64,000 bases of DNA, taken from assembly GCA_947454525.1 (NCBI GenBank), contig CANGJM010000008.1, positions 1 to 64,000 on the forward strand. The letters run 5' to 3'. Each line of letters starts with the position of its first letter. Positions within the stretch are counted from its first letter, which is position 1. Source of the DNA: Flavobacteriales bacterium (GTDB lineage Bacteria > Bacteroidota > Bacteroidia > Flavobacteriales_D > Crocinitomicaceae). Position numbers and translations under genes: made by a program. The notes beneath the pieces are model-generated. The model saw only the letters and a list, made by a program, of their open reading frames with translations. It made no database searches and was not told where the DNA came from. Below, piece after piece: positions 1 through 290 of the stretch.

Positions 1-209
1 AAATATTGGTCCGCTAGCTCAGTCCGCCCCGGCGGAAGCAACTGCCCTAAGAAGCAGCAACTGAGAATTGAAATATTGGTCCGCTAGCTCAGTCCGCCCC
101 GGCGGAAGCAACTGCCCTAAGAAGTAGAACTGAGAATTGAAATATTGGTCCGCTAGCTCAGTCCGCCCCGGCCGAAGCAACTGCCCTAAGAAGCAGCAAC
201 TGAGAATTG
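1..209 (+). repeat. three tandem ~70-bp tRNA-derived repeats
   Basis: Three near-identical units lie head to tail at 1-70, 71-139 and 140-209, directly before a real tRNA-Arg. Each unit starts with the same 7-base flank and the same first 15 bases as that tRNA, then diverges. Each can fold as a three-way junction: in unit 1, CTCAG (18-22) pairs with CTGAG (61-65), enclosing a TCCGCC/GGCGGA hairpin (23-36) and a CTGC/GCAG hairpin (42-57). Unit 2 keeps the last hairpin through a G-U pair; unit 3 has one mismatch in the GC hairpin. The T-arm and the 3' acceptor strand are missing, so these are not working tRNAs. The array may continue upstream of the window. Confidence 0.85.
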
Positions 210-216
210 AAATATT

Positions 217-290
217 GGTCCGCTAGCTCAGCTGGATAGAGCAACGCCCTTCTAAGGCGAAGGTCTCAGGTTCGAATCCTGAGCGGATCA
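217..290 (+). tRNA. tRNA-Arg (anticodon TCT)
   Basis: A full cloverleaf can be drawn over 74 bases. The acceptor stem GGTCCGC pairs with GCGGATC (one G-U at the second pair), followed by discriminator A; CCA is not encoded. The D-arm has stem GCTC/GAGC, the anticodon loop CTTCTAA puts TCT at 251-253, and the T-arm carries TTCGAAT between CAGG-type stems. It reads AGA codons. It is followed at once by a strong terminator and preceded by three broken copies of its own 5' half. Confidence 0.97.

Follow-up and report, generated by a model that had tools for sequence, protein, structure and literature searches.

Transfer RNA genes are classic attachment sites and are usually regarded as docking sites of integrases. 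Repeats built from parts of such genes are also known, an example being the tyrT repeats of E. coli (rtT RNA, RF00391), which lie in tandem beside a tRNA gene and each of which contains a piece of the tRNA end. In fungal mitochondria, atp6, atp9, cox2, and nad3 of Glomus and atp6 of Allomyces are gene hybrids formed by mobile ORFs: a nuclease gene, of the GIY-YIG type in Glomus atp9, is inserted in the host gene, brings a replacement for the gene end, and displaces the native end downstream (PMC3630166, in the sections drawn on here). Phage SegB is a GIY-YIG homing nuclease which is enriched at tRNA genes and drives segmental tRNA amplification (PMC13096335, likewise cited for part of its content). 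Among the best-ranked papers of a literature search, judged at the level of title and abstract, no description of GIY-YIG cassettes that split bacterial tRNA genes was found.

The DNA analysed here, termed the window, comprises 64,000 nucleotides and corresponds to bases 1–64000 of contig C8 of a draft genome of 2.83 Mb (G000). It begins with a tandem array, reported by TRF for 1–231 with a period of 70, 3.3 copies, and a score of 441, which runs into an intact gene for tRNA-Arg(TCT) on the plus strand (217–291; ARAGORN; Rfam RF00005, 63.1 bits), as a preliminary description of this DNA had stated. Three units of 69–70 bp (8–216) directly abut the tRNA gene, the acceptor stem of which, GGTCCGC/GCGGATC, is designated type B. 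Every unit starts with GGTCCGCTAGCTCAG, which is identical to tRNA positions 1–15, and ends with AATTGAAATATT, the 5′ flank of tRNA-Arg; between these shared parts, also claimed previously, lie TCCGCC-NN-GGCGGA at the place of the D-loop, the anticodon arm, and CTGAG, which is read as a remnant of the 3′ strand of the T-stem. In unit 1 (8–77, plus strand; delimited by repeat alignment and TRF), these parts correspond to tRNA nucleotides 1–15 (8–22), the palindrome TCCGCCCCGGCGGA replacing the D-loop (23–36), a hairpin derived from the anticodon arm (42–57), CTGAG (61–65), and the 5′ flank (66–77), all on the plus strand. Unit 2 (78–146, plus strand) is 69 bp long and has GTAG instead of GCAG at 124–127, which results in a G-U pair, and unit 3 (147–216, plus strand) has CGGCCGA within the palindrome, a change that breaks one pair of the first hairpin. 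The two hairpins, the closing CTCAG/CTGAG stem, and the pairing-preserving change in unit 2 had all been recognized before; the middle part, previously called unrelated-looking, turned out to consist of a dispersed palindrome in the D-loop, the anticodon arm, and the T-stem remnant. The units derive from tRNA-Arg itself, since one unit in genome G004 retains the exact anticodon arm, ACTGCCTTCTAAGCAGT, and the proposal of amplified tRNA fossils thus finds support. The tRNA gene is followed on the plus strand by a terminator-like hairpin with a T run (292–317, recognized from the sequence) and by a gene for a free-standing, single-domain GIY-YIG nuclease of 81 amino acids (335–580; Pfam PF01541, E 2.1e-14). 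Elsewhere in the window, 3187–6126 encodes a 979-aa protein with long collagen-like G-x-x repeats, and CGCTCT-type repeats (60468–60503) are located near the 3′ end of tRNA-Arg(CCT) (60510–60582).

Base 1 of the window is base 1 of contig C8, and the contig end cuts the array. Contig C21 terminates in the same array on the minus strand, behind tRNA-Ser(GCT) and tRNA-Pro(TGG), so that the suspected upstream extension proved to be right. C21 carries three units, of which at most one can equal a window unit, and the array therefore comprises at least five units, the true number being lost in the assembly break. In relatives, the order Ser–Pro–units–Arg is contiguous; the array is thus probably the break between C21 and C8, and judged from this gene order the two contigs are most likely joined there. 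A search of the genome with 1–290 gave matches only at C8, at C21, and, weakly, at another tRNA. Units scattered without tRNA sequence were hence not seen in this genome, in agreement with the proposed link to the tRNA; the palindrome alone is scattered. Six named contigs which contain the unit are parts of MAGs of Crocinitomicaceae, Flavobacteriales, or Flavobacteriia.

In five relatives without an array (L011, L043, L069, L074, and L075), the alignment with the upstream flank on C21 stops at tRNA nucleotide 15 (four loci) or 16 (one locus), which supports the earlier suggestion of integration scars. In G000, the acceptor sequence is GGTCCCG in the outermost unit, located on C21, and GGTCCGC in the intact tRNA as well as in the inner units. 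This change from GGTCCCG to GGTCCGC units is also seen within the array of the named MAG loci L156 and L157. The contigs of these loci, which possibly represent the species of G310 and G222, stop short of the tRNA gene. In G273, it is the unit adjoining the tRNA, and not the outermost one, that has GGTCCCG. The inner units of G310 and L156 are without the palindrome. Four of the five array-free relatives have a GGTCCCG tRNA, and the fifth, L043 (G336), has the type-B sequence GGTCCGC without any unit, so that either type may be the older one.

PF01541 yielded 44 matches in 10 genomes, 20 of them in long frames (467–604 aa) and 24 in short genes. Sixteen of the 24 short genes are located beside a tRNA gene (13; Phe, Asn, Met, and Arg) or a tmRNA gene (3), one of the 13 being a tRNA-Asn locus (L092) whose contig starts inside the tRNA, so that the intact gene is cut; the remaining eight, two of them at contig ends, were not seen beside such genes. 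For the relatives of the window's nuclease, 47 matches were obtained and loci for 30, of which 23 have a tRNA within 900 bp and 18 contain a partial copy of the nearby tRNA (tRNA-Ser in L163 and L174). The seven best-scoring family members, including the window gene, all adjoin tRNA-Arg(TCT). With about 30 tRNAs per 2–3 Mb, chance would by our estimate account for a few per cent at most, and the position of GIY-YIG genes at tRNA genes is far above this value. Of the GIY-YIG genes away from tRNAs, that of L086 lies beside direct repeats and those of L087, L088, and L089 lie between them (31–90 bp), which suggests that insertions of this kind also take place elsewhere.

Two arrangements recur at these loci, one being intact tRNA, terminator, GIY-YIG gene, and displaced 3′ half, and the other displaced 5′ half, GIY-YIG gene, and intact tRNA. 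Displaced halves follow GIY-YIG genes at tRNA-Phe, -Asn, -Met, and -Arg and at tmRNA, and the nuclease ORF is located between the complete gene and a displaced end in L005, L066, and L067 (Arg), L080 and L081 (Phe), L083 (Asn), L085 (Met), and L093 (tmRNA), as well as in L092 (Asn), where the contig end cuts the intact gene. In the tmRNA locus of G000 (contig C4, L093 1080–1096), the GIY-YIG gene downstream of tmRNA is followed by 17 nt that repeat the 3′ end of the tmRNA gene. The tRNA-Phe locus of G015 contains a stack, with a period of 329, of two nuclease genes and a truncated third copy. A displaced 3′ half was looked for after the GIY-YIG gene at tRNA-Arg of G000 and none was found, so that only the putative left scar is visible in this genome. 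The nuclease ORF between a complete gene and its displaced native end is shared with the fungal gene hybrids as presented in the cited sections; the latter, however, concern protein-coding mitochondrial genes, whereas the loci described here are bacterial tRNA and tmRNA genes, in which both halves can be displaced, palindromes are present at the breaks, and halves form tandem arrays (PMC3630166). SegB, in the portion of its description used here, is similar in that nuclease genes are co-located with tRNA genes and a tRNA segment is amplified, but there full-length tRNAs are amplified in phage genomes and here broken halves in bacterial genomes (PMC13096335). The system which the loci resemble most is that of the fungal hybrids; in their way of working, they would be the counterpart of these at tRNA and tmRNA genes of bacteria (PMC3630166, for the sections mentioned).

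In G004, an intact type-B tRNA-Arg is followed by a GIY-YIG gene and a type-A 3′ half, and this half together with its flank matches the cassette-free locus L058 at 253 of 269 positions. G341 shows the converse, with a displaced type-B half behind an intact type-A tRNA; this half matches the cassette-free loci L049 and L008 at 280 and 278 of 290 positions, respectively. In these two genomes, as in the part of the fungal account considered here, the inserted end is unlike the native one and the native end is like that of relatives (PMC3630166), but among the 12 typed tRNA-Arg loci, the displaced 3′ end differs in type from the intact tRNA in 4 and is of the same type in 8. A rule that the replacement copy always differs from its target was rejected on this count. 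The intact tRNA-Arg of G015 is of type A, and a type-B 3′ end is located 167 bp downstream, within a 43-bp stretch that is 86% like the tRNA end plus terminator of G000; beside tRNA-Ser, G015 has a 187-aa ORF that is 98.4% identical to that of G000. The cassettes of G301 and G341 are identical at 395 of 401 positions (98.5%) and their flanks at 689 of 843 (82%, left) and 186 of 249 positions (75%, right), a relation that, for this one genome pair and at the level of sequence comparison, points to horizontal movement of the cassette.

Partial copies of tRNA genes are not restricted to tRNA-Arg. In G000, 4 of 31 tRNAs are accompanied within 800 bp by partial self-copies, compared to 4 of 894 cross pairs, and the tRNA-Arg array itself accounts for two of the latter four. 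Within the genus, BLAST detected partial self-copies at 20 of 58 tRNA-Arg loci (12 upstream and 11 downstream, with none in either direction in a reverse-complement control), at 15 of 46 tRNA-Ser loci, all downstream, and at 1 of 48 tRNA-Pro loci. The upstream number for tRNA-Arg is a lower bound, as 22 of the 58 loci have less than 60 bp of usable upstream sequence, and the BLAST count, which compares with the type of the intact gene, misses displaced halves of another type, some of which were observed. A strict pattern for the upstream front half of tRNA-Arg requires GGTC and the spacing to be exact and for this reason matched only 6 of 399 genomes of the order; the BLAST search of the 58 genus loci provides the better count. 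Most of the genomes compared are drafts, and many of those with names are MAGs; as the genomes are related, these counts do not represent independent events. The Ser–Pro spacer of L010, L012, L013, L017, L041, L042, L046, and L047 contains tandem units of about 80–115 bp, each of which ends in the 3′ end of tRNA-Ser(GCT). These tRNA-Ser repeats carry the 3′ end, as do the tyrT repeats, whereas the tRNA-Arg array carries the 5′ end and is located upstream; RF00391 gave no match in positions 1–700 of the window up to an E value of 1. The design of the tRNA-Arg array is found again at several tRNA genes in related bacteria from fresh water. In 48 operons, tRNA-Arg is represented by 15 distinct sequences with a mean identity of 0.876 and tRNA-Pro by 3 with a mean identity of 0.982 (47 of 48 of equal length), and tRNA-Ser by 10 with a mean identity of 0.957 (31 of 46 of equal length). 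Measured by these sequences, recoding is far more extensive in tRNA-Arg than in tRNA-Pro of the same operon.

The 14-bp palindrome is present at 38 exact places in G000, five of them inside the array, and at 27 in G015; its reversed control pattern has no place in G000. Sixteen of the 60 genomes searched, including G000, possess it, and none of the other 44. Upstream of a tRNA-Met of G000, which we label initiator-like (ARAGORN calls it Met-CAT), two 85-bp units have the same palindrome in the D-loop. At L133 (about 1293–1470; G000, contig C3), a second, broken tRNA-Met with palindromes in the D- and T-loops lies behind the intact one, and pieces similar to it occur in G099 (L082) and G015 (L122). 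The palindrome, TCCGCCGCGGCGGA, is also found within a duplicated terminator loop 3′ of tRNA-Leu(CAA) and within AATGTGCT minisatellites (L114, reverse complement 1435–1448; L115, L116, and L121). A short palindrome dispersed in the genome is reminiscent of REP/RAYT systems (cf. PMC3733652, in the part referred to here), and a Y1 transposase family is present in five of five palindrome-rich and in none of five palindrome-free genomes, the ten being chosen by palindrome count and belonging to one genus. In contrast to REP/RAYT elements as treated in that part (cf. PMC3733652), TCCGCC palindromes do not flank the Y1 genes in the 6 loci examined of 11 matches; a single copy lies 2 kb away in G002, and some of the six loci are surrounded by other hairpins. 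At L152 (1028–2266, G025), a Y1 transposase gene resides in an array of CGACTCC/GGAGTCG hairpins resembling a REP/RAYT island. In view of the co-occurrence, a Y1 transposase may be the mover of the palindrome, but the loci without flanking TCCGCC palindromes speak against it.

We consider it probable, with room for doubt, that the array represents the scars of a horizontally moving cassette which splits the tRNA gene and supplies an intact copy, the scars having later been amplified in tandem. According to this model, a small mobile cassette would split the tRNA gene and bring an intact replacement, and the units would be displaced front halves of tRNA-Arg(TCT), i.e., the left-hand scar of the cassette. 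The GIY-YIG protein, in which only this domain is seen, would cut the tRNA gene, repair would copy the cassette in, the palindrome would be an independent dispersed element that enters tRNA loops, and growth of the array could be due to unequal crossing-over, slippage, or repeated invasion. The palindrome at the break, the outermost unit of the other tRNA type, the order tRNA–terminator–GIY-YIG–3′ half in several relatives, and a cassette that differs far less than its flanks between two genomes argue in favour of this reading. Counted against it are the lack of a displaced 3′ half in G000, the L043 locus, the unit order in G273, partial copies without a GIY-YIG gene, the 8 of 12 same-type ends, and the 8 of 24 short GIY-YIG genes not seen beside a tRNA or tmRNA; nor does the reading account for the 8–13 nt of tRNA sequence that remain beyond the palindrome. 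Some of these points would fit tandem duplication of tRNA ends by slippage or recombination followed by decay, where palindromes land in hairpin loops of the spare copies, since only spare copies tolerate them, and GIY-YIG genes are passengers that favour tRNA flanks. Partial copies for which the stretch examined contains no GIY-YIG gene (among them L122, L135, and L125) occur at Leu(TAA), Met, initiator-like Met, and Ser and agree with such a process, as do the palindromes in the terminator loop after tRNA-Leu(CAA) and in the minisatellites and the palindrome-free inner units of the G310 type. We nevertheless regard it as rather doubtful, as it leaves unexplained why an intact tRNA of one type is surrounded by halves of a different type, the 98.5% identical cassette inside flanks of 75–82%, and the GIY-YIG genes that separate an intact gene from its displaced half at Phe, Asn, Met, Arg, and tmRNA.

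The preliminary description had also envisaged a repeated structured RNA, for which the units would be leader hairpins for processing of the tRNA-Arg precursor or small RNAs comparable to the tyrT repeats. In 15 units, the stems are paired in 92.6% of the cells versus 91.5% in shuffles (a value reached by 4 of 500), pair changes on both sides occur in 3 of 203 cells versus 0.4 in shuffles (0 of 500), and the covariation score is 0.063 versus 0.042 (0 of 500); moreover, the units belong to a tRNA operon, and read-through of the spacer would lead to their transcription. The three both-sided cells, however, derive from one sequence each, the shuffle control ignores relatedness, a slide of +3 already gives a score of 0.070, and four of the five pairs of the closing stem are invariant. 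Another unit type (L045) folds at a z value of −2.87, the values of the other unit types being −2.87, −1.34, and −1.17, but the three array units reach only −0.19, −1.27, and −1.08, a 5′ copy was found at 12 of 58 tRNA-Arg loci, and no Rfam match up to E 1 was obtained inside 1–201. A functional RNA thus receives little support and appears improbable; of the earlier interpretation, the fossils and the scars are supported, the structured RNA hardly is, and the middle is not unrelated. Scars of integrases using tRNA-Arg as attB would be in line with the classic role of tRNA genes as attachment sites and with the duplicated 3′ ends at several tRNAs. The gap between intact tRNA and displaced half is, however, a few hundred bases, mostly occupied by the GIY-YIG gene and by its length too short for an integrase as well, 5′ as well as 3′ halves are displaced, and the breaks lie in the D-, anticodon, and T-loops with a palindrome added, which makes this origin highly improbable.

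The cassette reading can be extended, tentatively and with considerable reservation, to a natural cleave-and-rescue element, in which the GIY-YIG nuclease would destroy an essential tRNA or tmRNA gene and the element would carry a recoded, uncuttable copy. Repeated invasions by differently recoded cassettes would then drive the stem-by-stem rewriting of tRNA-Arg(TCT), and the displaced halves left behind would accumulate in stacks such as the 70-bp array. Incoming DNA taken up by homologous recombination could also, without any nuclease, be a source of tRNA type swaps. In these bacteria, very small nuclease cassettes seem to split and replace tRNA genes, the sequence types of which differ between close relatives. 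Partial repeats of tRNA genes interrupt assemblies and are a source of error in tRNA annotation. If true, the cassette reading would explain why Arg-TCT and Ser-GCT have been rewritten within the genus and their operon neighbour Pro has not, and the loci would offer a testable natural counterpart of engineered cleave-and-rescue designs.
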